Source: Arenicellales bacterium
GTDB lineage: Bacteria; Pseudomonadota; Gammaproteobacteria; Arenicellales; JAJDZL01
Length of the DNA stretch: 64,000 bases
Direction: 5' to 3'
Assembly (NCBI GenBank): GCA_958295885.1
Contig: OY282380.1
Coordinates: 1,054,001-1,118,000 of the forward strand
Below are positions 5,728 to 32,174 of the stretch, one piece after another. The notes below the pieces were generated by a model. That model saw only the letters and a program-made list of their open reading frames with translations, searched no databases and was not told where the DNA came from. Position 1 is the first letter of the stretch. Each line of letters starts with the position of its first letter. Both the position numbers and the translations under genes were made by a program.

Positions 5728-6264
5728 CTACCGTCGAATAAAAAGCAAGTGCAAATAATCGACGAAAGACAGCGCGTAGCTTCTGTTGATCATCAAGTTG
5801 ATCTCATCGTTGGAATTCCACCAAACGGTGAGTTCATAGTCGATGAATCGGGTCTTGACCATCCCGTAATCCCGGTCTCGCCCACCGCACAGATCAGTCG
5901 AACAATATTCGCCAAATAAATTCAATATTGAATCTCCCTGAACGAAGAGCGCACATTTGCCATGGCTGACATCGGTCAGACTAACTCGGTGCTCAGCATT
6001 GAAATCCTCAAGGTTTAGCAGTCTCGATATGATGTATGCTGAAAAAGGGCTATATCTCAATAGCAGCATGTTGCCTACAGCAGCCATTTCCCCCGTACCA
6101 ACCGTTCGTTGCATCATCAAATGACAGAACTGATCAAGTTGTTCTGCGCTCCTGAACTGACCTTCGAACACGGAGATCTGCTGCTCAGAAATGGAAATTT
6201 CGCAGCCGTCCTGCTCCCATGTGGCGGAACCTACGAGGATTTCACGGACTAGGGACTCAGCCAT
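5728..6264 (-). CDS. soxG: Sarcosine oxidase gamma subunit
   Basis: Last gene of the soxBDAG set. Its 178 residues match SoxG, the small subunit of heterotetrameric sarcosine oxidase, which folds like the GcvT/YgfZ superfamily and packs against the alpha subunit. The recognisable family features are moderate: VREILVGSATWEQDGCEISI near the start and RFIDYELTVWWNSNDEINLMINRSYA near the end. Identity is strongly supported by position, because the ATG overlaps the soxA stop by 8 bases. No terminator is evident in the 28 bases before the Nudix remnant. Confidence 0.85.
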   Translation of the reverse strand: MAESLVREILVGSATWEQDGCEISISEQQISVFEGQFRSAEQLDQFCHLMMQRTVGTGEMAAVGNMLLLRYSPFSAYIISRLLNLEDFNAEHRVSLTDVSHGKCALFVQGDSILNLFGEYCSTDLCGGRDRDYGMVKTRFIDYELTVWWNSNDEINLMINRSYALSFVDYLHLLFIRR

Positions 6265-9193: not shown

Positions 9194-9452
9194 CCTGTTT
9201 GGACGCTGACGGCTTCCTGAATTCGTGAGTCACCGTATTGCGCGTTACGCAAATCCAGCGCTCACACCCGCAATGGTGATACCACAGTTCGCGTGTATCG
9301 CCTCTGGTGTTCTCGCGTATATGAACTGCCTCGTTCCAGGCATCAGTCGAGGCATTGTGTGGATTGCCGAAATTCGGAAACTTGATGTCACTTCCGCCGA
9401 AACTGAACTCGCGCTCATCGCGCAGGCCACACCATGGACAAGGGATCAGCAT
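9186..9452 (-). CDS. soxD: Sarcosine oxidase delta subunit
   Basis: An 88-residue zinc-binding subunit. The CPWCG motif near the start and the WYHHCGCERW motif near residue 60 give the Cys-Cys-His-Cys zinc site known from SoxD. The GDTRELWYHHCGCERWICVTRNT segment is typical of the family. It starts 4 bases after the soxB stop and overlaps soxA. Gene order soxB-soxD-soxA-soxG is the usual one in proteobacteria. Confidence 0.95.
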   Translation of the reverse strand: MLIPCPWCGLRDEREFSFGGSDIKFPNFGNPHNASTDAWNEAVHIRENTRGDTRELWYHHCGCERWICVTRNTVTHEFRKPSASKQGD

Positions 9453-9456
9453 GGCA

Positions 9457-10725
9457 TCAATGCAGCCAAGGGTAAGGTCCGATTCCGCTGTCGTCGATCA
9501 GTTCCCCGTTTTCAAACCGGTCGAGAGAAAATGGTGCGATCAGGTCCGGGACCGCGTTTTCAGCCAGCAGTTCAGCCATCAGCCAACCCACAGCCGGGGT
9601 TGCCTTGAACCCCGAGTACCCCCACCCGCAGTTCACGTAAAGGTTTTCGATAGGTGTCGCACCCAGTACTGCATTGCCGTCCATCGTAATGTCAGCGGTA
9701 CCGGACCAATGTCGCATCAGTCTGAGATTGGACAGAATTGGCAAGATCTGCACCGCCTGAACAACGACGTCTTCGATTGTAGAAAATGAACCCCGCTTGG
9801 CAAATGATGGATAGCCATCGGATGCGCCACCCAGTATGAACTCTCCCTTATCGGTCTGACTGATGTAGCACAATTCGGCGTTGTAGTTGACAACCACATC
9901 GAGAGCAGGTTTCACCGGTTCTGACACGAAAGCCTGAACGTTAATCGATTGAATTGGCATTGACAATCCCGCGAGTTTCGCAACCTGAGACGTTGCCCCG
10001 GCAACGCTGATCAACACTTTTTCACATTGAATTGTGCCTCGGACCGTTTGAACTGCGCTGATTCTTCCAGCATTGAATTCAAAGCCGGTTACTGGACAAT
10101 GCTGTACGACGTGAATTCCCGCATCGGCAGCAGATTTTGCAAAGCCCCAGGCAACAGCATCATGACGAACGATGCCGCCTCTTTCCTGAACCAGTCCACC
10201 GGTGATGGGAAAACGCGCAGTTTCGCTCAAGTCTATTTGCGGCACCCGCTGCTTAAGCTCTTCGCGATTCAGGATCTTCGCATCAGCGCCACGCAGGCGC
10301 ATTGCATTCGCACGCAGCATGAATTCTTCCAGCTCGCCATCAGAGTGTGCAAGATCGACATACCCCCTAGGGGAATACATCAGGTTGAAACCAAGTTCTG
10401 GACCCAGAGATCCCCACAGATCAAGTGCGAAATTCTTTAGTGCAAAACTTGCATCCAGCAGGTAATCGGATCGGACGATCGCGGTATTTCGAGCCGTGTT
10501 GCCGCCGCCCAGCCAGCCCGATTCCAATACGGCTGCGTTCGTCTCGCCAAAGCGGGCTGCTAGGTAGTGTGCCGTCGCGAGCCCGTGACCGCCACCGCCA
10601 ATTATGACGATGTCGTAACTCGAACGAAGCTGCGGTGACGGGATGATGTTCGGCCAGGGATTCGACCCGAGCACATTGCGCAGCAGCGAGAATGCTGAAT
10701 AATTGACCTTTTGGGATTTCCCCAC
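9457..10725 (-). CDS. soxB: Sarcosine oxidase beta subunit
   Basis: The catalytic flavoprotein subunit (422 residues) that dehydrogenates sarcosine. It begins with the family-specific YSAFSLLRNVL segment and a Rossmann FAD motif VIIGGGGHGLATAHYLA at about residues 40-56. ESGWLGGGNTARNTAIVRSDY follows, then RHDAVAWGFAKSAADAG, which carries the His region linked to covalent FMN in characterised enzymes. GWGYSGFKATPAVGWLMAEL forms the C-terminal flavin contact. The start is GTG with no strong Shine-Dalgarno. It lies 24 bases behind the TPP-dependent decarboxylase gene, so both are probably one transcript. Confidence 0.97.
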   Translation of the reverse strand: MGKSQKVNYSAFSLLRNVLGSNPWPNIIPSPQLRSSYDIVIIGGGGHGLATAHYLAARFGETNAAVLESGWLGGGNTARNTAIVRSDYLLDASFALKNFALDLWGSLGPELGFNLMYSPRGYVDLAHSDGELEEFMLRANAMRLRGADAKILNREELKQRVPQIDLSETARFPITGGLVQERGGIVRHDAVAWGFAKSAADAGIHVVQHCPVTGFEFNAGRISAVQTVRGTIQCEKVLISVAGATSQVAKLAGLSMPIQSINVQAFVSEPVKPALDVVVNYNAELCYISQTDKGEFILGGASDGYPSFAKRGSFSTIEDVVVQAVQILPILSNLRLMRHWSGTADITMDGNAVLGATPIENLYVNCGWGYSGFKATPAVGWLMAELLAENAVPDLIAPFSLDRFENGELIDDSGIGPYPWLH

Positions 10726-14099: not shown

Positions 14100-14918
14100 T
14101 TACTTACGAACGCGTACGACCGGGTACTGGTCGCTGTCCAGCGGCTGTCCGTCCTTCAGGTGTGGATTGATAATGATCCGGTTGACTTCCCCATCAGAAT
14201 GGTAAGTCATGCCATCTCCGGTGTATCGCACGGCGTAACCTCTGCGCACGGCGGGCGAGGCATTCGCTTTTGCACCATGTACGATCATTCCATCGAATGC
14301 GATCACATCACCTGGCTCCATCTCCCAGCACAGAATTTTGTGCTGCCCGCGCTCTGTTTCAAAATCTGGCAGTGGCTCGAATGCATTTTCAGTACCTTGG
14401 TAAAAGGCAGCCTGACTGCCATCTTTTGCCACCGTGAACGGCTGATACCATTTTTCCCACAAGTTTGAACCAGCAATGAATTCAAGCGGGCCAGCATTGA
14501 AACTGATTGAGTCAAGCGCTAGCCAGACTGTGATGGCACGACCGTTCCGTACCGGCCAGTAAGGCAGATCATTGTGCCATGGGGTCGCCGGGTCCCCAGC
14601 GGTTTTGGCGAAAACCTGATCGTAGAGCAGATTGACCTTGGATGACTCCATTAATGCAGCGGCAATCGCTGGCGCCGAAGAATTTAGACAAAATTCGCGG
14701 CAGGCGTCATCACTTTCCCATACCCTCTGGCGATGAAAATAATTGTCCGAATGACTGAGAGCCCTGTCTGCAGAAACGCGGAGATCGGTAATCCAAGGTT
14801 CCCCAAAAACGGATTTCAGCAAAATTGCTCCATCCTTATGGTAAGTGCTCAAAGTCTCGGGCTGAACCGTGAACGGATCTCTATTCAAATCGTGTTCATC
14901 CCTTATTTCTTTCAACAT
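14100..14918 (-). CDS. Phytanoyl-CoA dioxygenase (PhyH) family oxygenase
   Basis: A 272-residue Fe(II)/2-oxoglutarate oxygenase of the PhyH family. The iron ligands appear as HND in PWHNDLPYWP and the distal His in AFDGMIVHGAKAN; the following RRGYAVRYTGD supplies the likely 2-oxoglutarate-binding arginine. YHKDGAILLKSVF near the start is typical of the family. The ATG at 14918 is preferred over a frame beginning 84 bases upstream, because family homology starts after it. PhyH enzymes hydroxylate diverse small molecules, and the substrate is not predictable here. It is convergent with the aminotransferase gene, 93 bases apart. Confidence 0.88.
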   Translation of the reverse strand: MLKEIRDEHDLNRDPFTVQPETLSTYHKDGAILLKSVFGEPWITDLRVSADRALSHSDNYFHRQRVWESDDACREFCLNSSAPAIAAALMESSKVNLLYDQVFAKTAGDPATPWHNDLPYWPVRNGRAITVWLALDSISFNAGPLEFIAGSNLWEKWYQPFTVAKDGSQAAFYQGTENAFEPLPDFETERGQHKILCWEMEPGDVIAFDGMIVHGAKANASPAVRRGYAVRYTGDGMTYHSDGEVNRIIINPHLKDGQPLDSDQYPVVRVRK

Positions 14919-15183
14919 AAACAATATATTAATTCGATTAAGAGAATTTCTGACCCAGTACGGGAAGGTGCGGAACCGGGGCGTCAAACTAAAATGGTTC
15001 AATCGTCTATTGAACCGTAACGAAGTATACTACACGATGCGGCAAGACCAATGCGAGTTGGTTTGATCACCGCAAAACCTGCTTTACGAAGTGAGCATTG
15101 AACAAGCGGCGAAACACAACGGTTGAACTCGAACCAAGTTTTCAATTACGCCCGGTATTCAGTTAAATTTGAGGGGCCATGCA

Positions 15184-18964: not shown

Positions 18965-21376
18965 ATGAAAGATGCAGCCCAAGTCGTAGTAATCGGCGGC
19001 GGAATTGTCGGGTGTTCGGTCGCTTACCACTTGGCAAAGCACGGCTGGACCGATGTCGTCCTTGTGGAGAGGCAGGAACTTACGTCGGGTTCAAGCTGGC
19101 ACGCTGCTGGCGGACTGTTTACAGTAACCCGCCCCAACGCTGCCGCCCAGATTCATAAGTACACTTTTGACATCTACCCGGAGATCGAATCGGAAAGCGG
19201 TCAGTCATGTGGGTTTCATTTCACTGGTGGACTCAATATCTGCCGCACCCGTGAGGAAGTCGACAGCAACCGGATGATGCAGAGCGCCTGCCGAAGCCTC
19301 GGCATTGAAAGTTACTTCATATCACCCGAAGAAGCACACCGTAAAGCGCCAATTCTCAATACGGGTGATGTAATTTCCTGCCTTTGGGAAACCGATGGCG
19401 GACATGTCGACCCTGCTTCAGCAACTCAGGCTTTCGCTCGCGCGGCAAGAAATCTGGGGGCCGAAATCTATCGTCACACCCCAGTGATTCGAACCGAATG
19501 GTCGCCAGGAGGCCCATGGCTGGTGGGCACAGAAAAGGGCGATATCCGGGCCGAGTATATTGTCAATGCAGCGGGCCTTTGGGGACGGGAAGTCGGCAGG
19601 CTGGCAGGAATCGAACTGCCGCTTATGCCGGTTGAACACCATTATCTGGTAACGGAATCCATTCCTGAAATCGACCAGCTTGACTTCGAATTGCCTCAGA
19701 TCAACGACAACGAGGCAGGATGTTATGCGCGACAGGAAGGACAGGGACTGCTGTTTGGCGCTTACGAAACAACTTGCACGCATTGGGCGGAAGACGGCAC
19801 GCCTGAAGATTTTGGGCACGAGCTGCTGCCCGACGACCTGTCTCGCATGGAGTGGAATTTTCAAAAATCCGTAGAAATCATGCCGTGTCTCGCTGAAGCG
19901 GGAATCAAGCGGATCATCAACGGCCCGATGATTTTTTCACCAGATTTAGGACCCTTGATCGGCCCGCATCCTGAGCTGCGAAACTATTTCTGTGCGAATG
20001 GAGTGATGACAGGATTCAACCAAGGTGCAGGCATTGGCAGGGCAATTGCCGAATGGATGATTCAGGGAGAACCGGAAATCGACCTGTTCTGTTGGGACGT
20101 CGCCCGGTTCGGGCGTTGGGCCTCAAAATCCTACACCCGGGAGACAACAAGGTATTTTTATGAAAACCGAGCAGAAAATATTTATCCTTACCAGGAATTT
20201 GATGCAGGCCGTCCGATACACAAGCCACCGGTTTACAGTCGCCTGAAAGCAGCTGGCGCCGTATTTGGTGCGTCATTCGGGCTCGAACATGCGAACTGGT
20301 TCGCACAGGGGACAGTCAATGCACGTGATTCACTGACCTATCGTCAGCCCAACTGGTGGATGCCGGTAATCAACGAGGGAAAGCGCGTGCGCAATGAAGT
20401 TGGGTTGATGGAATACTCCGCAATGGCGAAGTTTGAGGTGAGCGGTCACAACGCAGAAAACTGGCTGAATTACGTCATGGCGAATTCAATACCCCAACCC
20501 GGCAAAATGATTTTGTCACCGATGCTGTCGACACAAGGTCGGCTGATTGGAGATTTTTCTGTTTCGAAGATCGAAGAAGATCGATATTTCGTGTTGGGTT
20601 CTGACATTATGCAACTCTCATTCATGCGACATTTTGGTCAGTTTCTTCCCCTTGCTGGAGTACAACTCAAAAACCTGTCATCTGACTATGCGGGTTTGCA
20701 CATTTGCGGCCCCAACGCTCAGTCACTGATGGCTCGCCTTGCAAATCAAGATATGGACACCTCGAACTTTCCCTTTATGCATGCGGCCAAAATATCGATT
20801 GGCGACATACCCGATGTCATTACGCTTCGAGTGTCGTTTACCGGTGAAACCGGTTATGAAATGTATTTGCCATCACAACTTCAGCCCAAGTTGTTCGACC
20901 TGCTGATGAGAGAAGGGCAGAACTTGGGCATCGGGCTCGCGGGTACGCGGTGTCTGATGCAAACACGGCTGGAAAAGAGCTTTCCCGCGTGGGGGCTTGA
21001 GCTCTCTCCGGACTATACCGCAGTTGAAGCAGGAATGGAGCGATTTATAAAATTGGACAAAGGCGATTTCGTTGGGCGCAGCGCGGCGATGAACTATGGG
21101 CGTCCAAGAGCAAAACGAATCACGCTGATCGTGGATGCCGGGAACTGTGCAATATGGGGCGATGAAGCAATTTTTCTGGACGGAGAGCCGGTAGGCGCCG
21201 TATCGTCAGGTGGATTTGGACCGCAGACGGAATGCCACATCGCGTTGGGTTATGTCGACGTTGATGCCTGTACCGCAGGCGGACAGTTCAGCGTGGAAAT
21301 TCTCGGCAAGCTGCGGGAAGCCGAGTTCTGCGATCAGCCAGTATATGATCCGGCTGGCACTCGAATGAGGACATAG
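18965..21376 (+). CDS. Dimethylglycine/sarcosine dehydrogenase-like flavoprotein with GcvT domain
   Basis: An 803-residue flavoprotein that should oxidatively demethylate an N-methyl glycine derivative and hand the methyl carbon to tetrahydrofolate. The N-terminal FAD domain starts with VVVIGGGIVGCSVAYHLAKHG at about residues 8-28. The GSSWHAAGGLF motif carries the His that binds FAD covalently in dimethylglycine dehydrogenase. The C-terminal half is a GcvT-type folate domain (GLMEYSAMAKFEVSGHNAENWLNYVM, LRVSFTGETGYEMYLPS, LEKSFPAWGLELSPDYTAVEAGM). It is followed on the same strand by an MttB homologue. A start at 18965 fits the FAD motif position. Dimethylglycine, sarcosine or another N-methyl amino acid are all possible substrates. 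Confidence 0.9.
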   Translation: MKDAAQVVVIGGGIVGCSVAYHLAKHGWTDVVLVERQELTSGSSWHAAGGLFTVTRPNAAAQIHKYTFDIYPEIESESGQSCGFHFTGGLNICRTREEVDSNRMMQSACRSLGIESYFISPEEAHRKAPILNTGDVISCLWETDGGHVDPASATQAFARAARNLGAEIYRHTPVIRTEWSPGGPWLVGTEKGDIRAEYIVNAAGLWGREVGRLAGIELPLMPVEHHYLVTESIPEIDQLDFELPQINDNEAGCYARQEGQGLLFGAYETTCTHWAEDGTPEDFGHELLPDDLSRMEWNFQKSVEIMPCLAEAGIKRIINGPMIFSPDLGPLIGPHPELRNYFCANGVMTGFNQGAGIGRAIAEWMIQGEPEIDLFCWDVARFGRWASKSYTRETTRYFYENRAENIYPYQEFDAGRPIHKPPVYSRLKAAGAVFGASFGLEHANWFAQGTVNARDSLTYRQPNWWMPVINEGKRVRNEVGLMEYSAMAKFEVSGHNAENWLNYVMANSIPQPGKMILSPMLSTQGRLIGDFSVSKIEEDRYFVLGSDIMQLSFMRHFGQFLPLAGVQLKNLSSDYAGLHICGPNAQSLMARLANQDMDTSNFPFMHAAKISIGDIPDVITLRVSFTGETGYEMYLPSQLQPKLFDLLMREGQNLGIGLAGTRCLMQTRLEKSFPAWGLELSPDYTAVEAGMERFIKLDKGDFVGRSAAMNYGRPRAKRITLIVDAGNCAIWGDEAIFLDGEPVGAVSSGGFGPQTECHIALGYVDVDACTAGGQFSVEILGKLREAEFCDQPVYDPAGTRMRT

Positions 21377-21512: not shown

Positions 21513-23051
21513 GTGATTCGGCGTCGGTCCAGAAACAGGAAGCTCCGTTTGGGGCGCAGGCGCCAGCCGTTTGCACAAAGACCGTTCCAGGCTTTGCAAA
21601 ATCCGTACCCGCCAATGGAAATTCTGTCGGCTGACCAAGTCGAAGCCATTCATCAGGCCAGCCTCAAAATTCTGCGCGATATTGGAATTCGGGTTGAGAG
21701 CGAGACAGCCTTGAAACTTTTGAAGGACCTAAGAGCGGAGGTTGACAACTCCAGCAAACATGTTCGTTTTGAACCTGATCTGGTTGAAGAAATGATCCGC
21801 GGTCTGCCCGAAGAATTCACCATCCATGCCAGGAATCCGTCAAAGACAGTCACTATGGGCAGGAATTCAATCGTGTTTGCAACAGTTTGCGGCCCCTCAT
21901 TTGTAACGGATCTAGACCGCGGGCGTCGGGCCGGCACCCAGCAGGACATGGAAAATTTCGTGAAGCTGTCGGGTTCATTGAATGTGTTTCATCACGAAGG
22001 CGGCAGCGGGCTGGAGCCCTTGGATTTGCCGCCTGAAACCCGCCACTTTGAAATGATGCGTGCCCAGATTACCTTAACCGACAAGGGCTGGCAGCCGTGC
22101 TGGATGAACACGGGCGAGCGGGCTCGAGACTGCATCGAAATGGCCAAAATTGCACTGCAGACCGATGACGAAGGATTGAGGCAGAAACCGGCGATCGTTG
22201 GCGGCGTCAACACAAACTCCCCACTGCTGTTTGATGAGGGTCAAGCGGATGGCATGCGCGAATTCGCCCTAGCTGGCCAGCCTGTGCACATTACGCCGTT
22301 CACGCTGGCCGGCGCCATGGCCCCGGCGACGGTCGCGGGAGCAGTTACATTGCAGAATGCCGAAGTCCTAGGCTGTATCGCACTGACTCAGGCAGCCGCT
22401 CCAGGTTCTCCGACATTCTACGGACATTTCACATCCAATGTTGACATGAGGAGCGGTTCGCCGGCATTTGGCACGCCGGAATATGCGCAGTCGGTAATCA
22501 TGTCCGGCCAGCTTGCACGCCGCTACAGACTACCGTTTCGGTCGTCCAGCACGACAGCTTCAGCTTGTGTGGATCTCCAGGCTGTCTATGAGAGTGACAT
22601 GTCGATTCACGCCTGCATTCAGGCACACGTCAACAATGTCATGCACGCAGGCGGCTGGCTGGAAGGTGGGCTGACTTGTTCATTCGAGAAACTGATACTC
22701 GATGCCGAACTGCTGCAGATGCAGTCAGCTTTTCTTGAGCCGGTGATCGTAAACGAGGATTCGCTGGGACTAGAGGCGATTGAGGAAGTAGGTGCTGGCG
22801 GGCACTATTTTGGCGCCGCGCACACCCTTGAACGATATCAGAATGCATTCTACGAACCCATCCTTTCGGATTGGCGGAATTTCGAAAGCTGGCGGGATGA
22901 CGGCAGTCGTACTGCGCTGCAGCGAGCCAACTCAATCTGGAAAATGCTGCTGCGCGAATACGAAAAACCACCGATTGACCCCGCAATTGAAGAAGAACTT
23001 CAGGCTTACATCACAAGGCGGAAAGAGGAGATCAAGACCAAAGGTGCTTAG
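21513..23051 (+). CDS. MttB-family (non-pyrrolysine) methyltransferase, copy 1
   Basis: A 512-residue member of the trimethylamine methyltransferase family. It starts with the Arg-rich RRRSRNRKLRLGRRRQ stretch common in this family, followed by the family core (HQASLKILRDIGIRVES, VCGPSFVTDLDRGRRA, GPxx-type glycine-rich strands). The frame has no internal amber codon, so it is a pyrrolysine-free homologue. Characterised pyrrolysine-free members demethylate glycine betaine, proline betaine, carnitine or gamma-butyrobetaine, passing the methyl group to a corrinoid protein. No corrinoid protein is visible within the window. The GTG start has AGGTAA just upstream. The stop overlaps the next gene by 8 bases. 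Confidence 0.92.
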   Translation: MIRRRSRNRKLRLGRRRQPFAQRPFQALQNPYPPMEILSADQVEAIHQASLKILRDIGIRVESETALKLLKDLRAEVDNSSKHVRFEPDLVEEMIRGLPEEFTIHARNPSKTVTMGRNSIVFATVCGPSFVTDLDRGRRAGTQQDMENFVKLSGSLNVFHHEGGSGLEPLDLPPETRHFEMMRAQITLTDKGWQPCWMNTGERARDCIEMAKIALQTDDEGLRQKPAIVGGVNTNSPLLFDEGQADGMREFALAGQPVHITPFTLAGAMAPATVAGAVTLQNAEVLGCIALTQAAAPGSPTFYGHFTSNVDMRSGSPAFGTPEYAQSVIMSGQLARRYRLPFRSSSTTASACVDLQAVYESDMSIHACIQAHVNNVMHAGGWLEGGLTCSFEKLILDAELLQMQSAFLEPVIVNEDSLGLEAIEEVGAGGHYFGAAHTLERYQNAFYEPILSDWRNFESWRDDGSRTALQRANSIWKMLLREYEKPPIDPAIEEELQAYITRRKEEIKTKGA

Positions 23052-24171
23052 CGAGGCATTTGCTGAAAAAGACGCGAAGGCAGAATTAGAATTGCGGAAC
23101 ACTGCTGACTTGGCAGACGGCATCCGTAATCTGCTGCTGCGCTGTGTCAAGGTCAAGTCCGGTCAGAAACTGTTGCTCGTTGGTGAGGCAGGTGAAAGTG
23201 TCTATTACGACGCTGAACTCTGCGTGGCTGTGAAACAGGCGGCAGACCAACTTGGCGCAGTCACCAAAGTGCTGTTTGCCGAACCAGTGGTGGATGCTAT
23301 GAGCGTATCCAGCCAAGTTTCGCGGGAAATGTCGCTGTCGGATGCCGTTGTCTTTTTCTCCAGACTGGGCGATCAGACCCGCTTTATGCCGTCGCCGGGA
23401 GAGGGAAAAAAAGTGATGTGCTATACACTCACCAAAGCGCATCTGGCGGCTCCGTTTGGAACGCTTGATCACGAAAAAATGACGCAGATGCTGCAGCTGT
23501 TGGAAACCTCGATCCATTCTGCTTCGCACTATCAGATCAAAACTCTTGATGGCACCGATCTCAGCGGTGAGATCATTTCCGACGGAGACAGAAAGCCGAG
23601 TAAAAAATTTCATGTTGACCTGTTTCCAGTGATGATTTTTGAGGCGATTAACTGCCGCAATATTTCGGGCAGCTTGACGATATCGAAATTTATCACCTCA
23701 ACGTCGACGCGCGCTTATGATGACAGTGTTCTGATGATAGATTCTCCAGTGAGCGCCCGAGTCGAAAATTCCATCATTACGTCAATGAATGGCGACAGGC
23801 AGACAACCTGTAGCATCGTTCAACAACTTGAACGAGCCGCACAACTCAGCGGAGGCGACCCTTATGCGCTGCACTCTTGGCATGCGGGCATTAACCCGGG
23901 CACTTTTTTCGCAGGGAATCCCTTTGATGACCTGGAATACTGGGGCACTGTTGCGTATGGCTCTCCCCGGCATACGCATATACATGCGGCAGGACTTGAC
24001 CCTGGTGATGTTGCCTACTTCCTAATGGACGCGACAATACGAATTGACGACGAATTGTTTTGGCATGACGGTCGTTTCGTATTTCTGGACAGACCCGACG
24101 TCAAATCCCTCTTTACACCAAAAGAGCGGCAGGTGTTGAATTCACGCTATCGTCTCGATATCGGCATGTAG
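23044..24171 (+). CDS. NicX/aminopeptidase M29-like metalloprotein
   Basis: A 375-residue protein starting at a GTG that overlaps the MttB stop by 8 bases, so the two are probably translationally coupled. The fold resembles the thermophilic M29 aminopeptidase/2,5-dihydroxypyridine dioxygenase (NicX) superfamily: LLLRCVKVKSGQKLLLVGE near the start, then SWHAGINPGTFF, GSPRHTHIHAAG and a C-terminal DDELFWHDGRFVFL. The His/Asp/Glu residues in these motifs are candidate metal ligands. Members of this superfamily include peptidases and a ring-cleaving dioxygenase. Neither activity can be assumed, but coupling to an MttB homologue suggests a role in breakdown of the same methylated amine. Confidence 0.75.
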   Translation: MLSEAFAEKDAKAELELRNTADLADGIRNLLLRCVKVKSGQKLLLVGEAGESVYYDAELCVAVKQAADQLGAVTKVLFAEPVVDAMSVSSQVSREMSLSDAVVFFSRLGDQTRFMPSPGEGKKVMCYTLTKAHLAAPFGTLDHEKMTQMLQLLETSIHSASHYQIKTLDGTDLSGEIISDGDRKPSKKFHVDLFPVMIFEAINCRNISGSLTISKFITSTSTRAYDDSVLMIDSPVSARVENSIITSMNGDRQTTCSIVQQLERAAQLSGGDPYALHSWHAGINPGTFFAGNPFDDLEYWGTVAYGSPRHTHIHAAGLDPGDVAYFLMDATIRIDDELFWHDGRFVFLDRPDVKSLFTPKERQVLNSRYRLDIGM

Positions 24172-24420: not shown

Positions 24421-24996
24421 ATGCAGAATGATCAGCCACCCTGCTGGATTGAAACAATCAGTTCCGAATTGTGCGAGACGTATGACAAGTTAGTCGATGC
24501 CCCCAATAAGATAGGCAATCTCTACCTTGCGTTTTCGCTGCAGCCCAAACCGCTGCTTGCGGCAGACCAGCATTATCGGGATATCATGCACAACCCGGAA
24601 AGTCAGTCATTACCGTGGTTTCTGGAGCTGTTGGCATCCCAGGTCGCGGTCATCGCTGAATGCCAGTATGCACTGACTCATCACGGTGCGAATTTCAGGT
24701 CTTTGCTCGGCGATGAAGAACTTGGAGAAAAGATGCTGCAGGCCGTGCGAAATGACGATTTCGCCGACAGCTCCCTGTTCACTCCGAAACAGGCTTCCCT
24801 GTTGGTCTTTGGTGCAAAGCTGTCCCGTTCCCCGGAAAACATGACCCGCGAAGACCTTGAGCTTCTTCGACGCGTCGGCGTAACAGACACCGAAATACTC
24901 GAAGCAGTACAGGTTATTGCGTGCTTTGCTTACTGGGTGCGTTTCATCAATGCCCTGGGCGTCAATATTGGTCACGAACGAATCGGCATGTACTGA
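24421..24996 (+). CDS. AhpD/carboxymuconolactone decarboxylase-like protein
   Basis: A 191-residue helical protein of the AhpD-like fold, preceded by GGAGG at proper spacing before the ATG at 24421. The family motif is seen as IAECQYALTHHG, where active peroxidases have Cys-x-x-Cys; here the second Cys is replaced by Ala. A C-terminal VQVIACFAYWVRFINALGV helix is typical of the uncharacterised peroxidase-related subgroup. It is 249 bases downstream of the NicX-like gene on the same strand and convergent with the ABC transporter operon. Without the second Cys, classical thiol peroxidase activity is doubtful. Confidence 0.75.
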   Translation: MQNDQPPCWIETISSELCETYDKLVDAPNKIGNLYLAFSLQPKPLLAADQHYRDIMHNPESQSLPWFLELLASQVAVIAECQYALTHHGANFRSLLGDEELGEKMLQAVRNDDFADSSLFTPKQASLLVFGAKLSRSPENMTREDLELLRRVGVTDTEILEAVQVIACFAYWVRFINALGVNIGHERIGMY

Positions 24997-25027: not shown

Positions 25028-26686
25028 TCAGTTTCCGGCCGACTGCATGCTTTTTTGGCTTGTTCGCTGAGCCATAATTTTGTCCAGCCAGTCCGGGTTC
25101 ATCTCGGGAACAGAAGATAAAAGGAGTTCCGTATATTCGTGGTGAGGCGGTTCGAGGACTGCGGTCTTCTCACCCTGTTCGACGATGCGACCTTCCAGCA
25201 TGACAATGATTCGATCGGCAATCGCCCGAACAGTGGCTAAATCATGAGTGATGAACATGTAAGCCAGGCCGAGTTCCCGCTGCAGTCGGTCCAGCAGTCG
25301 CAGAATGCCTTCGGCAACAAGTTGGTCCAGCGCCGACGTGATTTCATCACAAATAATGAATTTCGGATTGGCTGCCAGCGCGCGGGCAATGCATATTCTC
25401 TGTTTTTGTCCGCCAGACAGTTCGTCAGGGTAGCGATCGAGAAACTGCTTTGGATCCATTTCGATCATATTCATCAGATCATTGAGCCGTCTCTGCTTTT
25501 CATCGCCTGCCATGCCCAAGTAGAAACTGAGCGGCCGACCAACGATTTTGCGAATTTTGTGCCGCGGGTTGATTGCAGTATCAGCCATTTGGTAAATCAT
25601 TTGAACTGCCTGCAGCTGAGCAATGGAACGATCATGGTAGTCGGGCGGCAGCGTTTCGCCGTCTAGCACGACGGAGCCTTGCAGCGGTGGCAACAGCCCG
25701 GTGATCACGCGTGCAGCAGTGCTTTTTCCGCTGCCCGATTCCCCAACGATTGCGACGGTTTCTTGACGATATACTTCAAAATCAACATCGGTGAGCACCG
25801 GATTTGAGGTTTTTGGATACTTTGCAGTAATGTTGTTCACACGGACCACGGGGTCATAGTCCGTGCATTGAGCAACCGTCGGCTTTTTGAATGTTCTGAC
25901 CGCCCAAAGAGTTTTGGTGTAGTCTTCTTTGGGATTGTCAAGCATGGCACGGGTTTCGGCTTCTTCAACCAGTTCGCCATATCGAAGCACAACAATCTTG
26001 TCAGCCATCTGCGCAACCACCGCGAGGTCGTGAGAGATATAGATGGCGGATGTATTAAAGAGTTCGACAATGTCGCGTATTGTGGCCAGCACTTCAATCT
26101 GGGTGGTGACGTCAAGCGCTGTGGTGGGTTCATCAAAAACGATCAGATCCGGGCGGCAGGACAGCGCCATTGCAGTCATTGCTCGCTGGAGCTGACCACC
26201 CGAAACCTGGTGGGGATAGCGAAATCCGATCGTATCAGGCTCCGGCATCCTGATTTTTGAGTAAAGATCTTTAGCGTCTGCATAGGCTTGTTCTCGGCTG
26301 CCGACTCCGTGCTGAATAACGGATTCGCTAAACTGATCAATCAGCTTGTGCGCAGGATTGAAAGCCGCGTCGGCACTTTGCGCAACGTAAGCGATCCGGG
26401 CGCCTCGCAAACGCCGTTTATCTTCCTCCGAGGCAGTTGTCAGTTCCATGCCATCAAACTTTATGCTGCTGCCTGGTTTGATTCTGCATCCTGCCTTGCA
26501 ATATCCCATGGCTGCAATGCCAATGGTGGATTTTCCAGCACCGGATTCACCAATCAATCCCAGCACTTCTCCGCGCTTCAGAGTGAGATCAACGCCATTC
26601 ACGATGTCGTGCCAGCGTCCTTCGCTGAAGCCTTCAATCTGCAGGTTCTTGATTTCCAGCAGACAGCCGTCTGAATCAAACTTCAT
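25028..26686 (-). CDS. Fused double-ATPase of a Dpp/Opp-type ABC importer (DppD-DppF)
   Basis: A 552-residue protein with two complete ABC ATPase domains in tandem. Domain 1 has Walker A GESGAGKST, signature VSGGQLQRA and Walker B LIVFDEPTTALD. Domain 2 has [18 protein letters not shown] and FIICDEITSALD. The ATG at 26686 overlaps the end of the permease gene by 11 bases. It energises uptake through the two permeases encoded upstream. As last gene of an operon with solute-binding protein and MttB homologue, the imported compound is probably the MttB substrate (a betaine or N-methylated amino acid or peptide). Confidence 0.95.
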   Translation of the reverse strand: MKFDSDGCLLEIKNLQIEGFSEGRWHDIVNGVDLTLKRGEVLGLIGESGAGKSTIGIAAMGYCKAGCRIKPGSSIKFDGMELTTASEEDKRRLRGARIAYVAQSADAAFNPAHKLIDQFSESVIQHGVGSREQAYADAKDLYSKIRMPEPDTIGFRYPHQVSGGQLQRAMTAMALSCRPDLIVFDEPTTALDVTTQIEVLATIRDIVELFNTSAIYISHDLAVVAQMADKIVVLRYGELVEEAETRAMLDNPKEDYTKTLWAVRTFKKPTVAQCTDYDPVVRVNNITAKYPKTSNPVLTDVDFEVYRQETVAIVGESGSGKSTAARVITGLLPPLQGSVVLDGETLPPDYHDRSIAQLQAVQMIYQMADTAINPRHKIRKIVGRPLSFYLGMAGDEKQRRLNDLMNMIEMDPKQFLDRYPDELSGGQKQRICIARALAANPKFIICDEITSALDQLVAEGILRLLDRLQRELGLAYMFITHDLATVRAIADRIIVMLEGRIVEQGEKTAVLEPPHHEYTELLLSSVPEMNPDWLDKIMAQRTSQKSMQSAGN

Positions 26687-27548
26687 CCTTGAGTCCTGAA
26701 GTTTTGTGTAAGAACCAGTCAATCACAAAATTGACTGCGACGGTCAGCAGCGCAATGGCCGCGGCTGGGATGAGAGGGGTATAGTCATCAAACGTGATCA
26801 GGACAGCAGTCTGTCGGACCATCGATCCCCAGTCTGCAATCGGAGGCTGAATGCCCAGCCCCAAGAAGCTCAGGGCGCTGATAGTCAGGAAAACGAAACA
26901 GAATCGCAGGCCGAATTCTGCAGCCAGCGGCGCTGAAATATTCGGCAGAATTTCTTGAATCGCGACCCACGGCAGATTTTCGCCGCGCAGCCTTGCCGCT
27001 TCGATGAAATCCATAACCACAACGTTCAGACTCACCGCTCTGCCTATTCGAAAGATTCGAGTCGCGTCGATCACACTCATAATGATGATCAGGTTGAGGA
27101 CCGAAGAACCGAATATTGACAGCAGCAGCATTGCAAATATCAGTGCGGGAATGGCCATGAAAACATCGACGATGCGACTCATCAACTGATCATACCAACC
27201 GCCTAATATCGCCGCCAGTATGCCTAATATTCCACCCACCACGAATGCAAGGATTGTGGTCAGTAAAGCGATGCCGACGGTATTTCTCGCACCGAAAAGG
27301 ATGCGCGTCAACATGTCTCGACCCAGATGGTCTGTTCCAAGGAGGAACTGTTCGCTCCAGGGCTGAAACTTTCTACCGACGATTTCAGATTCGCCGAATG
27401 GTGCAATCCAAGGGGCAAACAGTGCGACGAATATATAGGCGGCAATCACCAGCAGCCCAAATTTGGCGCTCAACGGCGCCTCACCCAGCAACTTCAGAGC
27501 GCGGAAAGAATAGCTGAGGAAAGCGGAATTTGCTGCTCGTGAACTCAA
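26676..27548 (-). CDS. DppC-type ABC transporter permease
   Basis: A 290-residue inner-membrane permease of the DppC/OppC group, with an N-terminal extension and about six transmembrane segments. The periplasmic GTDHLGRDMLTRILFGAR motif and the cytoplasmic EAA loop (DFIEAARLRGENLPWVAIQEILPN) that docks the ATPase are visible. Translation appears to start at a TTG, 11 bases after the DppB-type gene, with AGGA upstream. Confidence 0.94.
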   Translation of the reverse strand: MSSRAANSAFLSYSFRALKLLGEAPLSAKFGLLVIAAYIFVALFAPWIAPFGESEIVGRKFQPWSEQFLLGTDHLGRDMLTRILFGARNTVGIALLTTILAFVVGGILGILAAILGGWYDQLMSRIVDVFMAIPALIFAMLLLSIFGSSVLNLIIIMSVIDATRIFRIGRAVSLNVVVMDFIEAARLRGENLPWVAIQEILPNISAPLAAEFGLRFCFVFLTISALSFLGLGIQPPIADWGSMVRQTAVLITFDDYTPLIPAAAIALLTVAVNFVIDWFLHKTSGLKDEV

Positions 27549-27559
27549 AACATGAAATC

Positions 27560-28516
27560 CTATTTGGGATGCAGCAGTCGGGGGTTCGTCAGAATTGAAA
27601 GAACATCCGCAATCAGGTTGAGAATAACGTAGGTTGCTGCAAATATCAGACAGCAGGCTTGGACGACCGGCATATCCCGGCGCTGTACCGCGTCAACCAG
27701 AAACTGCCCAAGTCCCGGATAGACAAACACGACTTCGACCACAATGACGCCGACAATCAAGTATGCGAGGTTCAAAACGATCACATTCACGATCGGCGCC
27801 CAGGCGTTGGGCAATGCATGATGGAAGATGATTCGAAACCTCTTCATTCCCTTGAGCGCCGCCATTTCAATATAAGCGTTGGATAGTAGGTTGATGATTG
27901 CCGCACGAGTCATGCGCATCATGTGTGCCATAGACACAAGCGTCAGGACAAGCGCGGGCAGCAGCGTTTTTTCAAGATGTTCGACGAAGGTCGTATCCGC
28001 TCTGACGTTAGACAGACTTGGAAGCCAGCCAGCCTTAACCGAAATCAGAAGCAGCAGAATATAGGCAACGAAAAATTCAGGCGTCGATATCGAAGACAGC
28101 GTAACGATGTTGACAGACCGATCATAGAAGGTGTTTCGATATAGTGCTGCAAGAATGCCGAGTATTAAAGCGAGTGGCACTGCGATGCAGGCTGCAAACG
28201 TCGCCAGGAATATGGTGTTATAGAATCGCGTGCCGAGCACTTCGTTAATTTCCCGGCCATTTCCAATTGATCTTCCAAAATCGCCCTGAAATATGTTGCC
28301 CAGCCAATCAAGATAACGGACATGCGCCGGCATGTCCAAGCCCAGCTGTGAGCGCAGGGCCGCCACTGTTTCAGGCGTTGCCGCCTGACCCAAAATCGCT
28401 TCGGCAGCATCGCCAGGCAACATCGAAACAGCGAAAAATATGATGAGCGAAACAGCAAAAAGCGTGAGTAAACCCAACAGGATTCGCTGTGTCAGCATAA
28501 TCAGGACATGCTTCAT
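27560..28516 (-). CDS. DppB-type ABC transporter permease
   Basis: A 318-residue permease of the DppB/OppB group. It starts with the usual RILLGLLTLFAVSLIIFF first membrane segment. It carries the family LPGDAAEAILG and LGLDMPAHVRYLDWL segments, and the EAA loop YIEMAALKGMKRFRIIFHHALPNA. It pairs with the DppC-type permease. It lies 41 bases after the second MttB homologue in the same orientation. Confidence 0.95.
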   Translation of the reverse strand: MKHVLIMLTQRILLGLLTLFAVSLIIFFAVSMLPGDAAEAILGQAATPETVAALRSQLGLDMPAHVRYLDWLGNIFQGDFGRSIGNGREINEVLGTRFYNTIFLATFAACIAVPLALILGILAALYRNTFYDRSVNIVTLSSISTPEFFVAYILLLLISVKAGWLPSLSNVRADTTFVEHLEKTLLPALVLTLVSMAHMMRMTRAAIINLLSNAYIEMAALKGMKRFRIIFHHALPNAWAPIVNVIVLNLAYLIVGVIVVEVVFVYPGLGQFLVDAVQRRDMPVVQACCLIFAATYVILNLIADVLSILTNPRLLHPK

Positions 28517-28557: not shown

Positions 28558-30027
28558 TCAACTGAAGAAATACTGATTTGACTTGGAATCACCCAGTAAA
28601 TCGGCGATGCGCTGACGGATTCGCTTCTGCATATCCTGACCACCTGCCTCAAGCCATGCTTCGGCATCAGATCGTTCACATAGATTAGGATACCAGTTTT
28701 CCGTCAAGTAACGGTCTTGAGTGTGTGGGTCAGTTAAAAATTCATTGGTTGGTGCAGCTCGCTTAACGACTTCTACGGCGAGAGCTTCGGCATCCACTGT
28801 CACGCCATTCGCCATTTTCGATGACCAGCCAATCAATTCGTCGCAAAGTGTCAGCATTTCCAATGATCCGGTGCGGCCGCCGGATAGAAAACCAAGGTTG
28901 TGAACAAACGGAGTTCTTGCCATTGATGCGATGCTCATATTGGCACCGGCTTCCGCTGCGGCTTGAGCATCAAACTGATGCGAATCCGAACAGCCTGCCC
29001 CGACCCAAGATGGTACGCCGATATGACGAAAGTAATCACTTGCACCGAGGCCCGTAAGCATATATTCAGGTGAACCGTAGGCAAGATTGGCCTGGCGCAG
29101 GTCCATGGGCAGGACCGCCGACCCACTCAATACTGGCGCTCCCGGTTCGGCCAGCTGGTGAACAACAATGCCAGCGATCGCCTCAGCGGATGACTGGGCA
29201 ATTGCCCCAGCGAGTGAAATCGGGCTGGACATGCCCGGAAATGTGGCTGGATAGCAGACCACCGGCACCCGCCAGCGAGCACAGTTGATGAGTCTCGCGC
29301 ATAGTTCATCGGGCAGCCGCAATGGAGAGATCGGACCCATCAATTCGACAGAAACCGGCTTATCTGCGAGACGGTTCCAGCCGCCGACCCGGTCTGCGAT
29401 AGCGGTCATCATCCGCTTCTGTATCTCATCGTCGTGTGCCAGCAGTGCCGCAGGTTTGCTGCAGTTTTCATACATGACCTTGGTAGTTTCGACCACCTCG
29501 TCTTCCGGTCGGATTTCGCTTGGATAGCCGAGCGAACCGACCATGTCAATGTTCGGCAGCTGCTCGCACAGTCTGGCGGTCTCACGAATGTCCTCAAGCA
29601 GACATGGCCTCAGTTCACCGGTTCTGAAATCCAGAATTCGCACACAGTTGTGTCCGGGACAATAGCTGGACACTTTGCTGCCGGTATCAACGCTTAAGTT
29701 GCCATCTCTATCATAGAGCAGTATTTTTCGGGGGACGGTCGCGATTGTTTTCTCGATTAGGTCAGGTGGCAGACGAATAAAGTCGTCATCGCATTCCACG
29801 CAACCATGCCGCTTGATCAGACTGCGGCGCGTAGCGGAGTGTTCGACAATAATTCCGACTTCCCAAAGAATCGCTTTTACTGCGTCGTGAATCAATATGG
29901 CGTCAGCAGACTCGAACAACTGCAGTGATAGATTCTGCATGTGCTTGCTGCTTTGTCGACGCAATTCAACTTGTCGCCGCGCTTTCTGCCGCCGCGCCAT
30001 AGAACGTGCTGAACGCGATTTGACCAT
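28558..30027 (-). CDS. MttB-family (non-pyrrolysine) methyltransferase, copy 2
   Basis: A 489-residue paralogue of the gene at 21.5 kb, with the same N-terminal basic stretch and core (ILWEVGIIVEHSATRR, CPGHNCVRILDFRTGELRP, VELMGPISPLRLPDELC, GSPEYMLTGLGASDYFRHIG). No in-frame amber codon, so no pyrrolysine. It is embedded between the solute-binding protein and the permeases of one importer, which points to demethylation of the imported compound. The ATG at 30027 is preferred because the frame upstream runs into a terminator hairpin; an ATG at 30000 is an alternative. No clear Shine-Dalgarno at either. Confidence 0.9.
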   Translation of the reverse strand: MVKSRSARSMARRQKARRQVELRRQSSKHMQNLSLQLFESADAILIHDAVKAILWEVGIIVEHSATRRSLIKRHGCVECDDDFIRLPPDLIEKTIATVPRKILLYDRDGNLSVDTGSKVSSYCPGHNCVRILDFRTGELRPCLLEDIRETARLCEQLPNIDMVGSLGYPSEIRPEDEVVETTKVMYENCSKPAALLAHDDEIQKRMMTAIADRVGGWNRLADKPVSVELMGPISPLRLPDELCARLINCARWRVPVVCYPATFPGMSSPISLAGAIAQSSAEAIAGIVVHQLAEPGAPVLSGSAVLPMDLRQANLAYGSPEYMLTGLGASDYFRHIGVPSWVGAGCSDSHQFDAQAAAEAGANMSIASMARTPFVHNLGFLSGGRTGSLEMLTLCDELIGWSSKMANGVTVDAEALAVEVVKRAAPTNEFLTDPHTQDRYLTENWYPNLCERSDAEAWLEAGGQDMQKRIRQRIADLLGDSKSNQYFFS

Positions 30028-30041
30028 AATCAGCAGGCAAA

Positions 30042-30078
30042 AAAACAAGTCCGACGAAACACCAGTTTCGTCGGACTT
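30042..30078 (-). terminator. Intrinsic terminator/attenuator after the solute-binding protein gene
   Basis: A perfect 14-bp inverted repeat (30047-30060 with 30065-30078) closes a 4-base loop. Read on the minus strand it is followed by a T-rich run (GTTTTTTTG). It lies between the solute-binding protein gene and the second MttB gene, so it probably lowers expression of the downstream genes relative to the binding protein. Confidence 0.85.
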
Positions 30079-30112: not shown

Positions 30113-31705
30113 TTAACCTTTCATCCACCAACGTTCAATCATTTTGTAGCCGTCAAACTCCCAGTTGCCGGCAACTTGATCAGGTACGCCGACATTGGAT
30201 TTGAGCGCCGAAATGTGGTTCGCAAATGCGTGAATCACCGAGCCGCAGTCATCTCGAGTGATAGCCTGCATCTCCCAATACATGTCGCGGCGCTTGTCGC
30301 TGTCCAATTCAGCTCTAGCTGCCAAGAGCAGCTGGTTGAACTTTTCGTTTCTCCAGTAACTTTCGTTCCAGTTCGAGCCTTCCGAATACCCTTGGGTAAA
30401 CATCCAGTCCTCAGTCGGCCGACCACTCCAGTAACTTGCGCACCATGGGTGCTGGAGCCATACATCATTCCAATAACCGTCGTCTGGAACCTGATTTGGA
30501 ATCAGCTCAATGCCGGACGCCTTGGCATGTTCGCTATACAGAACAACAGTATCCACACAGCCGGAATAAAGACTGTCTGAGGCGCTCAATTCAACCGTCA
30601 GACTGCTAAGCCCTGCTTGTTTAAGGTGCCATTTGGCCTGTTCCGGATCGTACGCCCGCTGCTCGAGTTCATGGTTGAAGTATCGATTGGCCGGTGAGAT
30701 CGGATGATCGTTTCCCAAGCTGCCGTAGCCGCTCAGAATCGTATCAAGCACAACTTCCCGGTCAATGGACAGCTTAAGTGCCATTCGCACATGATTGTTG
30801 TCGAACGGCGGTAGGTCGGTTCGCATTGGAAAGGTGTAATGCTGAGTGCTTGTAATGTCCAGAATCTCGACATCACCGTTCCTGGCGAGCAAAGGGGCGG
30901 TGGTTGCATCCACATCCCCGATGACATCGACCGCGCCTGTAATCAAGGCGTTCTGACGCGCCGTGGAATCGGCAATCGTCAAAATTTCCGCAGTGTCCGC
31001 AAACCCGCGGTCTGACCTGTAATCGTTCGGGTTGCGCAAAAATCTGGAGTACTGACCCGGTTCAAATGATTCCAGTGAGTAAGCTCCACAACCAATATCA
31101 AACGCTTCGATATCTCCATCTTTCGACGGCAATATTGACAGCACGCTTGCGCTGAGAATTACGGGAAAATCAACGCTGGGATTCTTCAGTTTGAATTTGA
31201 CAATTTGATCGCCGTCTTTGGTAATGGAATCGACATCGGTCATAAATGACTTCATTGACGAGGCAGACTCTTCGCCTCGGTGCCGATTGAGCGACACGAT
31301 TACGTCATCCGCTGTTACGGTTTTGCCGTTGTGAAAGGTTACCCCCGGCCGCAAGGTAAATATCCACTCTGACGGGTCGGCACCGGGCTCATAGGACTCT
31401 GCCAGCAGAGGAACCACCTGCCCATTCGGCGCAACTTCCGTCAGCGCATTGTGTATCGTTGAAAACAAGAAGTTGGTGTGACCACTTGTCAGATGGATTG
31501 GGTCCAGCGAATCGGTTGATGAACCCTGCACGGTTGCAACGCGCAGGTGACCGCCTCTGACTGGTGATGCCGCGCGAGCAGCTGATCCAATGAATAATTC
31601 AGGCATCGCGCCAGCGATCCCCAGTGCACCAGACGCCTGTATGAACTTGCGCCTGGACACTTTTCGATTAGCAAAATCGAACAATTTGTTTTTAGATGAT
31701 TTCAT
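30113..31705 (-). CDS. Periplasmic solute-binding protein, DppA/OppA family, Tat-exported
   Basis: A 530-residue extracytoplasmic binding protein (SBP family 5). The signal peptide carries a twin-arginine motif SRRKFIQASGALGIAGAMP and an AxA-like site near ARAASP, so export through Tat is expected. Family features include GGHLRVATVQGSSTDSLDPI, a WIFTLRPGVTFHNGKTVTADDV segment and RWWMKG at the end. The ATG at 31705 has a strong GGAGGAAG sequence just upstream. It is the first gene of the importer operon. Ligand not predictable from sequence. Confidence 0.93.
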   Translation of the reverse strand: MKSSKNKLFDFANRKVSRRKFIQASGALGIAGAMPELFIGSAARAASPVRGGHLRVATVQGSSTDSLDPIHLTSGHTNFLFSTIHNALTEVAPNGQVVPLLAESYEPGADPSEWIFTLRPGVTFHNGKTVTADDVIVSLNRHRGEESASSMKSFMTDVDSITKDGDQIVKFKLKNPSVDFPVILSASVLSILPSKDGDIEAFDIGCGAYSLESFEPGQYSRFLRNPNDYRSDRGFADTAEILTIADSTARQNALITGAVDVIGDVDATTAPLLARNGDVEILDITSTQHYTFPMRTDLPPFDNNHVRMALKLSIDREVVLDTILSGYGSLGNDHPISPANRYFNHELEQRAYDPEQAKWHLKQAGLSSLTVELSASDSLYSGCVDTVVLYSEHAKASGIELIPNQVPDDGYWNDVWLQHPWCASYWSGRPTEDWMFTQGYSEGSNWNESYWRNEKFNQLLLAARAELDSDKRRDMYWEMQAITRDDCGSVIHAFANHISALKSNVGVPDQVAGNWEFDGYKMIERWWMKG

Positions 31706-32174
31706 CCTTTCTTCCTCCACGTTGAATATGAATCGACACTCTGAACGCCTCGCCTGTCTGATGCTCATTGCATCGTCAATTTGCCCAACTTCGGCGATAC
31801 CATGTCAATCCAAGCATTAATGCAATTCTCGCAATTCTAATGTTATCCCAATCAATTTTCAATTGTAACAGATTGTTTGAAAATGAATTTCAGCTTGCGA
31901 AGGCAGCTTCCGCCAGATGCAGATGCCCCAAAACTCGCTAATTCAGCAGCCGTTGCGCCGCAGCTGCAATCACGCGGCAGTCGAAAGGCAGCAGCCCTGT
32001 ACGTTCGCTGAACGGTCTGAAGCGATCCGTTTTCCCGTAGTGTTCAGTCCGCGTCATGACTTCCATAAGTCGCCACAGACCGGAGCATCAGCTGTTTTGG
32101 CGGGTTTCTAACACTGTGGAAAATGACACTCTCCAATGGCCATAAAATTGATTTATGTTAATAATATTATTATT
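31706..32174. other. Upstream region of the importer operon, no gene seen
   Basis: About 470 bases between two minus-strand transcription units. It should contain the promoter of the binding-protein operon and the end of the lipocalin-like transcript region. It is AT-rich near 32140-32175 (TTAATAATATTATTATTTTAATAA). No gene, riboswitch or clear operator was identified. Confidence 0.4.

Follow-up and report, generated by a model that had tools for sequence, protein, structure and literature searches.

The fold common to NicX and the M29 peptidases has, to our knowledge, no well-described enzyme activities other than theirs. NicX is the 2,5-dihydroxypyridine 5,6-dioxygenase of Pseudomonas putida KT2440 (PDB 7CN3, 7CUP), and the M29 aminopeptidases include AmpT, PepS and AmpS. 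A further system for comparison comes from aerobic methyl metabolism, where MttB-superfamily proteins are described as transferring methyl groups to corrinoid proteins and where aerobic, corrinoid-dependent demethylation of glycine betaine by MtgBCD is reported as established in Ruegeria pomeroyi (PMC12478193). Here we describe a locus in a stretch of 64,000 nucleotides from an Arenicellales bacterium (contig OY282380.1 of assembly GCA_958295885.1, positions 1,054,001 to 1,118,000), hereafter the window, in which a gene for a NicX/M29-fold protein, designated M29L, stands between genes for an MttB-superfamily methyltransferase (MttB1) and an AhpD-fold protein. M29L belongs to a real, well-conserved and uncharacterised branch of the NicX/M29 fold that is found in loci for N-methyl catabolism.

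In the window, genes for a DMGDH-like flavoprotein, MttB1, M29L and the AhpD-fold protein stand in this order, followed on the opposite strand by an Opp-type ATP-binding cassette (ABC) transporter, a second MttB-superfamily protein (MttB2) and a family-5 solute-binding protein (Table 1); a SoxBDAG-like operon (5728-10725, minus strand) lies 12 kb upstream of M29L. The window's genome resembles the MtgBCD system in having MttB-superfamily (MtgB-type) proteins, small corrinoid open reading frames (ORFs) and a predicted oxidative removal of later methyl groups, but the window itself differs in containing no corrinoid match and in carrying additional NicX-fold and AhpD-fold genes. M29L and NicX have a fold in common over about 305 residues, but differ in sequence (~16% identity) and gene neighbours, and NicX residues S302 and D320 are without equivalents in M29L. 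The M29 aminopeptidases are similar in overall fold and more distant than NicX, and the crocagin proteins CgnE and CgnB (PDB 6ZSU, 6ZSV), which belong to a peptide-natural-product context, come next as far weaker matches.

Fold and distribution of the M29L family

Matches to M29L were found in 25 of 194 genomes of the order (the window's own counted, and one match, in G092, being short and weak), and 394 confirmed hits were obtained in GTDB species genomes, from which we conclude that M29L is a real gene. It was also present in 3 of 397 other genomes sampled evenly over the phylum, and a search of viral contigs returned no relative. Carriers include the Roseobacter-type bacteria Leisingera sp. 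ANG-Vp and ANG-M1, Roseovarius aestuarii and Cochlodiniinecator piscidefendens. For the survey of loci, the best 79 of the 394 GTDB genome hits were kept, and the survey accordingly leans towards close relatives; after nine duplicate loci had been dropped, 94 remained, of which 40 had full flanks, and many absences may reflect cut contigs. With L036 and L082 left out, the M29L alignment comprised 25 sequences of at least 40% identity (window included) and 67 more distant ones.

Searched as a single protein against Pfam, NCBIfam and PDB sequences, M29L gave no convincing match, and a hit to E3_UbLigase_R4 (0.028) was dismissed as weak. A profile of 20 M29L relatives searched against the PDB missed NicX, and hhalign of the same 20 relatives against the single NicX sequence returned a probability of 1.6%. 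Aligning 92 M29L with 31 NicX sequences raised this to 97.6% (local mode) and 98.8% (global mode), the hhalign E-values for this comparison referring to one target. An AlphaFold2 model of M29L built with 20 relatives (pLDDT 86.7, pTM 0.86) had NicX as its top solved match in Foldseek (7cn3, E 5.4e-15), followed by PepS, AmpS and AmpT of the M29 family (2.2e-10 to 5.3e-9). VIA-align of the model gave the same order, with Z 23.6 over 305 residues for NicX, 16.4 to 15.5 for M29 members, 10.6 over 258 residues for CgnE and 10.1 over 254 residues for CgnB. Pfam Peptidase_M29 (PF02073) matched none of 20 M29L family members, and none of 21 genomes (the window's own and 20 relative genomes) contained a match to it. 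Relatives of NicX itself occurred in 34 of 398 genomes searched, the window's genome not among them. As modelled, M29L has the NicX/M29 aminopeptidase fold, and NicX is clearly closer to it than M29; the sequence-only reading of the window, which had placed the protein in the aminopeptidase T/dihydroxypyridine dioxygenase superfamily, is thus borne out on this point. A literature search of open-licence papers found none on the M29L family or on an MttB-NicX pair.

A putative metal site that differs from that of NicX

Among the 92 aligned sequences, R113, F114, S278, H280, G282, W300, H312, H314, P320 and G321, among others, are invariant; E48, R107 and D110 are kept in 90-91, and 90 have Glu or Asp at position 322 (D322 in the window protein). 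Two of these residues, the arginines R107 and R113, point to an acidic substrate. In NicX, iron is reported to be bound by H265, S302, H318 and D320 (PMC7910607), and these ligands were mapped onto M29L in seven alignments, six of them hhalign modes and the seventh a joint MAFFT alignment. H265 was placed on H280 in all six hhalign modes (6/7 alignments), and the substrate-binding H105 on F114 (hhalign) or D110 (MAFFT).

The other placements weigh against a NicX-like chemistry for M29L. In the joint MAFFT alignment, H265 lies over S278 and thus misses H280 by two residues; H318 falls on D322 in five alignments and on H314 in two; D320 falls on A324 (5/7) or A316 (2/7), neither column being acidic; and S302 is aligned with G301 (4/7), a gap (2/7) or G306 (1/7), column 301 being Gly in 59 and Ser in 21 of the 92 sequences. 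Since S302 and D320 are without a counterpart in all seven alignments, M29L is not to be filed as a NicX; the missing ligands also leave room for M29-type hydrolase chemistry. The comparison with the NicX metal site that the sequence-only reading had proposed as a check gives agreement for H265 in 6/7 alignments, a divided placement for H318, and no counterpart for S302 and D320 in 7/7. We infer that a putative metal would be held by H280 together with H312/H314 and/or E/D322.

An AhpD-fold partner with an altered CxxC motif

The AhpD-fold protein encoded downstream of M29L scores 85.9 bits against TIGR01926 (peroxidase-related carboxymuconolactone decarboxylase), just above the cut-off of 81.8. 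Among close neighbours of the family, AhpD-fold genes are the most frequent: one lies within 300 bp of M29L in 18 of the 25 close relatives, 13 of these genes being within 20 nucleotides downstream on the same strand. The active site of the AhpD thiol peroxidase is a CxxC motif. Of the 35 AhpD copies at no more than 400 bp from M29L, all have Ser or Ala in place of the motif's second Cys, and 31 keep the first; Y88 and H93 are present in 35/35, and E74, N96, K138 and D150 are also invariant. The consistent loss of the second Cys makes a thiol peroxidase activity of the partner unlikely. Judged by its sequence, the protein is more likely to be a carboxymuconolactone-decarboxylase-like enzyme, and the M29L-linked AhpD-fold proteins form a distinct, probably non-redox subfamily.

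Association with MttB is recurrent and not obligatory

The sequence-only reading had started from the observation that the GTG start of M29L lies inside the last codons of the MttB gene, and had taken the 8-base overlap to imply a stoichiometric or functional linkage of the two products. The overlap is present, MttB1 with its TAG stop (23049-23051) running 8 nucleotides into M29L, but the start codon itself is uncertain. The frame is open back to 22792, and an alternative TTG at 23092 (residue 17) would abolish the overlap. In the model, pLDDT is <50 over residues 1-17, alignments to relatives in the 194 related genomes mostly start at residues 14-26, and a purine-rich GAGGAG (23025-23030) lies 13 nucleotides from the GTG, a long spacing for a ribosome site. 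Short overlaps between co-directional bacterial genes are moreover common, and the overlap was therefore rejected as evidence in itself for a special link between MttB1 and M29L.

The MttB-then-M29L order does extend beyond this genome: the genus has it in two further genomes, and one genome of another genus has it too (L047, L048 and L051, with spacings of 3 nucleotides, 3 nucleotides and a 17-nucleotide overlap). An MttB gene was found within 8 kb of M29L in 25 of the 94 loci and in 13 of the 40 with full flanks, compared with 4.4% expected from MttB density. The density control counted 239 copies over 93.6 Mb in a selection of 27 genomes; 24 of these belong to the window's order, whereas many of the surveyed loci are alphaproteobacterial. 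A tree of 33 MttB proteins from M29L loci, which has some long branches and a root for drawing only, resolves three main sets: MttB1, MttB2-like proteins, and a third in L090, L095, L097, L102 and L107; in L090, L095 and L107, MttB of types other than MttB1 adjoin more distant M29L members. These three loci carry the arrangement binding protein-OppB-OppC-ATPase-M29L-MttB, with the third MttB group, in alpha- and gammaproteobacteria. All six genomes with an M29L of at least 46% identity (the window's own included; four of one genus) have both MttB2 and this AhpD, and MttB2 occurs in 9 of the 194 genomes of the order; at genus level, all three genera with a close M29L have MttB2, which is found in 6 of 116 genera (P 8e-5); the co-occurrence P values take no account of kinship.

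Other genomes argue against a fixed place for M29L in this operon. G001, of the same genus, and G021, of another family, have the DMGDH-MttB1-AhpD operon without M29L between (MttB-AhpD gaps of 38 and 83 nucleotides, respectively), G021 carrying its M29L on a different contig; M29L was therefore gained or lost there and is not obligatory. In addition, no M29L match accompanies the MttB2 of G081 and G087, nor does G001, which has this AhpD, carry M29L. In G002 (L029 = L065), a gene for a 565-amino-acid (aa) DUF4143/AAA_14 ATPase (L029 7745-9442) separates MttB1 from M29L. Among the 25 close relatives, MttB stands immediately upstream in four, namely the window, L047, L048 and L051, against 18/25 with a nearby AhpD-fold gene; the window's own MttB was added to this count by hand, since the M29L frame there had been called from 22792. 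A stoichiometric MttB/M29L pair was accordingly rejected. MttB1 is of clear family identity (Pfam MTTB, E=1.9e-184), and MttB does stand as a frequent neighbour; the overlapping arrangement is narrow, and the emphasis should shift from MttB coupling to the AhpD-fold partner and the locus as a whole.

Gene neighbourhoods across the family

Neighbour families were labelled by the best scores of cluster-built profiles, with SoxA, SoxB and DMGDH split from one cluster by length; the SoxBDAG-like operon of the window, more than 8 kb away, falls outside the counts. Within 8 kb, the 25 relatives of at least 40% identity have AhpD-fold (19/25), SoxA-like (13), MttB (12), family-5 solute-binding protein (12), DMGDH-like (11) and Rieske (11) genes. 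In the Roseobacter-type loci L061, L083 and L109, a SoxBDAG-like operon with a Rieske oxygenase gene is found upstream of M29L and divergent from it; downstream come genes for AhpD, GST, MttB2, a binding protein and Opp. The 67 more distant members have AhpD-fold (36), Rieske (24), amino-acid binding protein (21), 2-oxoglutarate (2OG) oxygenase (14), MttB (13) and creatininase-like (13) genes; one Rieske family recurs in 36 of all 94 loci. That members below 40% identity are accompanied by amino-acid ABC transporters, 2OG oxygenases and creatininase-like genes instead counts against one role for the whole family, and its substrates must therefore vary.

Around the M29L gene of G021 (L031) stand genes for an amidase, an alpha/beta hydrolase and an M24 creatinase/prolidase-like protein (L031 3752-5056), and L087 has a DoeB-like deacylase gene nearby (7753-8808), scoring under its cut-off. 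DoeB-like deacylases and M24 creatinase/prolidase-like proteins are types that also occur in ectoine breakdown.

Proposed role and alternatives

Our preferred reading, to which we give somewhat less than even confidence, is that M29L, as a metal-dependent enzyme that probably uses O2, takes an N-methylated acid as substrate and acts on its carbon skeleton, the methyl groups being removed by MttB proteins and flavoproteins. The Opp-type ABC transporter would import the N-methylated substrate, and MttB1 and MttB2 would transfer methyl groups, in the manner of aerobic MtgBCD, to a corrinoid protein whose gene lies elsewhere in the genome. The remaining N-methyl groups would be oxidised by the DMGDH-like flavoprotein and the SoxBDAG-like complex. 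M29L, with its putative metal at H280 and H312/H314 and/or E/D322, would then act on the carbon skeleton, most likely by a NicX-like O2-dependent cleavage, and the AhpD-fold protein, presumably no longer a thiol peroxidase, would process the product. The genome encodes 10 MttB proteins and three corrinoid-binding (PF02607) ORFs of 248, 251 and 297 aa, none of the three in the window, and a corrinoid protein acting in trans is therefore probably common to MttB1 and MttB2. For the chemistry of M29L, O2-dependent cleavage as in NicX ranks as our first choice and hydrolysis as the second.

A more far-reaching proposal, which we put forward with greater reserve, is that, beside NicX and the M29 peptidases, M29L makes up a third functional branch of their fold, its metal site rewired (H280, H312-x-H314 and E/D322, in place of H-S-H-D in NicX), and that with an AhpD partner lacking the second active-site Cys it forms a two-enzyme module by which marine bacteria open N-methylated acids at the carbon skeleton. 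The family's 394 GTDB hits, its own invariant residues, its recurrent association with N-methyl catabolism genes and the lack of a match to a Pfam or NCBIfam model point to an undescribed enzyme step in methylated nitrogen turnover. With MttB2, Opp, SoxBDAG-like or DMGDH-like and AhpD-fold genes shared between loci, a substrate screen is feasible in Roseobacter-type strains carrying M29L.

The strongest competitor, in our view unlikely, is a metal-dependent hydrolase of amidase, peptidase or lactamase type, which by M29 chemistry would hydrolyse the methylated substrate in N-acyl, amide or cyclic form. It would suit the M29 aminopeptidases as second-best solved fold match, the unretained NicX ligands S302 and D320, and neighbours of hydrolase type, including those of L031, the sub-threshold DoeB-like gene of L087 and the creatininase-like genes of 13/94 loci. 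Against these stand the clearly closer fold of NicX (Z 23.6 vs 16.4), the lack of PF02073 matches in 21 genomes and 20 family members, and the frequency of oxygenase neighbours, with one Rieske family in 36/94 loci.

More doubtful is a role in opening the ring of N-methylated pyridines, of which homarine (N-methylpicolinate) is an example; here a NicX-type 5,6-cleavage would be followed by deformylation and reduction to N-methylglutamate, and the pathway finished by an Mgd-type (SoxBDAG-like) dehydrogenase. NicX is reported to cleave 2,5-dihydroxypyridine between C5 and C6 (PMC7910607), and Mgd to take part in homarine catabolism (PMC13390433). SoxBDAG-like operons scoring below the NCBIfam sox cut-offs occur beside M29L in alphaproteobacteria (SoxA-like in 13/25) and in the window, and Rieske and GST neighbours suit aromatic catabolism; however, corrinoid demethylation by MttB would be superfluous if the N-methyl group were kept as far as N-methylglutamate.

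We consider it slightly less plausible still that M29L plays no part in N-methyl catabolism and is carried as a genomic passenger. Its insertion into or loss from the operon within one genus and the varied neighbours of distant members are what a passenger would show, but N-methyl oxidases, Opp transporters and MttB recur beside M29L, MttB lies well above its density, and MttB2 is present in 3/3 genera with close M29L against 6/116 overall. A subunit or chaperone binding MttB1, which the 8-nucleotide overlap in the window and the tight spacing in L047, L048 and L051 might suggest, is highly improbable given the MttB1 operons without M29L in G001 and G021, the 21 of 25 close relatives (window counted) without MttB immediately upstream, and the three different MttB groups that neighbour the family.

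Other features of the window

The window genes considered here are listed in Table 1. MttB1 scored 313.9 bits against the pyrrolysine-dependent model TIGR02369, below the cut-off of 525, and its ORF has no in-frame stop. When the operon at 5728-10725 was assessed as a classical sarcosine oxidase (SoxBDAG), its SoxA, SoxB and SoxD all fell below the NCBIfam cut-offs and SoxG was unmatched. The SoxB-like protein is 66-69% identical to products of SoxB-like genes adjoining M29L in alphaproteobacteria (L083, L054, L061 and others), and the SoxA-like protein 49-54% identical to the best-matching M29L-linked SoxA-like proteins in that class.

Table 1 Coordinates of M29L and associated genes in the window
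Feature	Position	Strand	Evidence or remark
Probable SoxG-like subunit	5728..6264	-	no Pfam/NCBIfam match; profile grouping with SoxG-like genes
SoxA-like subunit	6257..9193	-	TIGR01372 1030.4 bits vs cut-off 1164
SoxD-like subunit	9186..9452	-	TIGR01374 84.7 bits vs cut-off 116.5
SoxB-like subunit	9457..10725	-	TIGR01373 522.2 bits vs cut-off 529.45
PhyH-family oxygenase	14100..15002	-	70% identical to gene directly after M29L in G002 (L029)
DMGDH-like flavoprotein (DAO + FAO_M + GCV_T + GCV_T_C)	18965..21376	+	predicted N-methyl oxidase, C1 to tetrahydrofolate
MttB1, 512 aa, non-pyrrolysine MttB-superfamily methyltransferase	21513..23051	+	Pfam MTTB E=1.9e-184, residues 5-507; 4yyc, 2qne, 9yce; tree
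M29L, NicX/M29-fold protein, 375 aa	23044..24171	+	GTG start 23044-23046, stop ends 24171
AhpD/carboxymuconolactone-decarboxylase-fold protein	24421..24996	+	TIGR01926; CxxC degenerated to CxYA
Opp-type ABC transporter ATPase, two ABC domains	25028..26722	-	
Opp-type ABC permease, oppC-like	26676..27548	-	BPD_transp_1 2.7e-28, OppC_N
Opp-type ABC permease, oppB-like	27560..28516	-	BPD_transp_1 1.8e-33
MttB2, second MttB-superfamily protein, distinct clade	28558..30048	-	MTTB 1.9e-76; tree
Family-5 solute-binding protein of Opp transporter	30113..31768	-	SBP_bac_5 8.1e-64

As a guess, the PhyH-family oxygenase might be part of the M29L pathway. A search for repeats in the window found short imperfect pairs only, and promoter and terminator scans gave nothing above shuffles. 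The window has a TauD-family gene whose homologue in G001 (L174 8858-9746) is broken into two ORFs that overlap.

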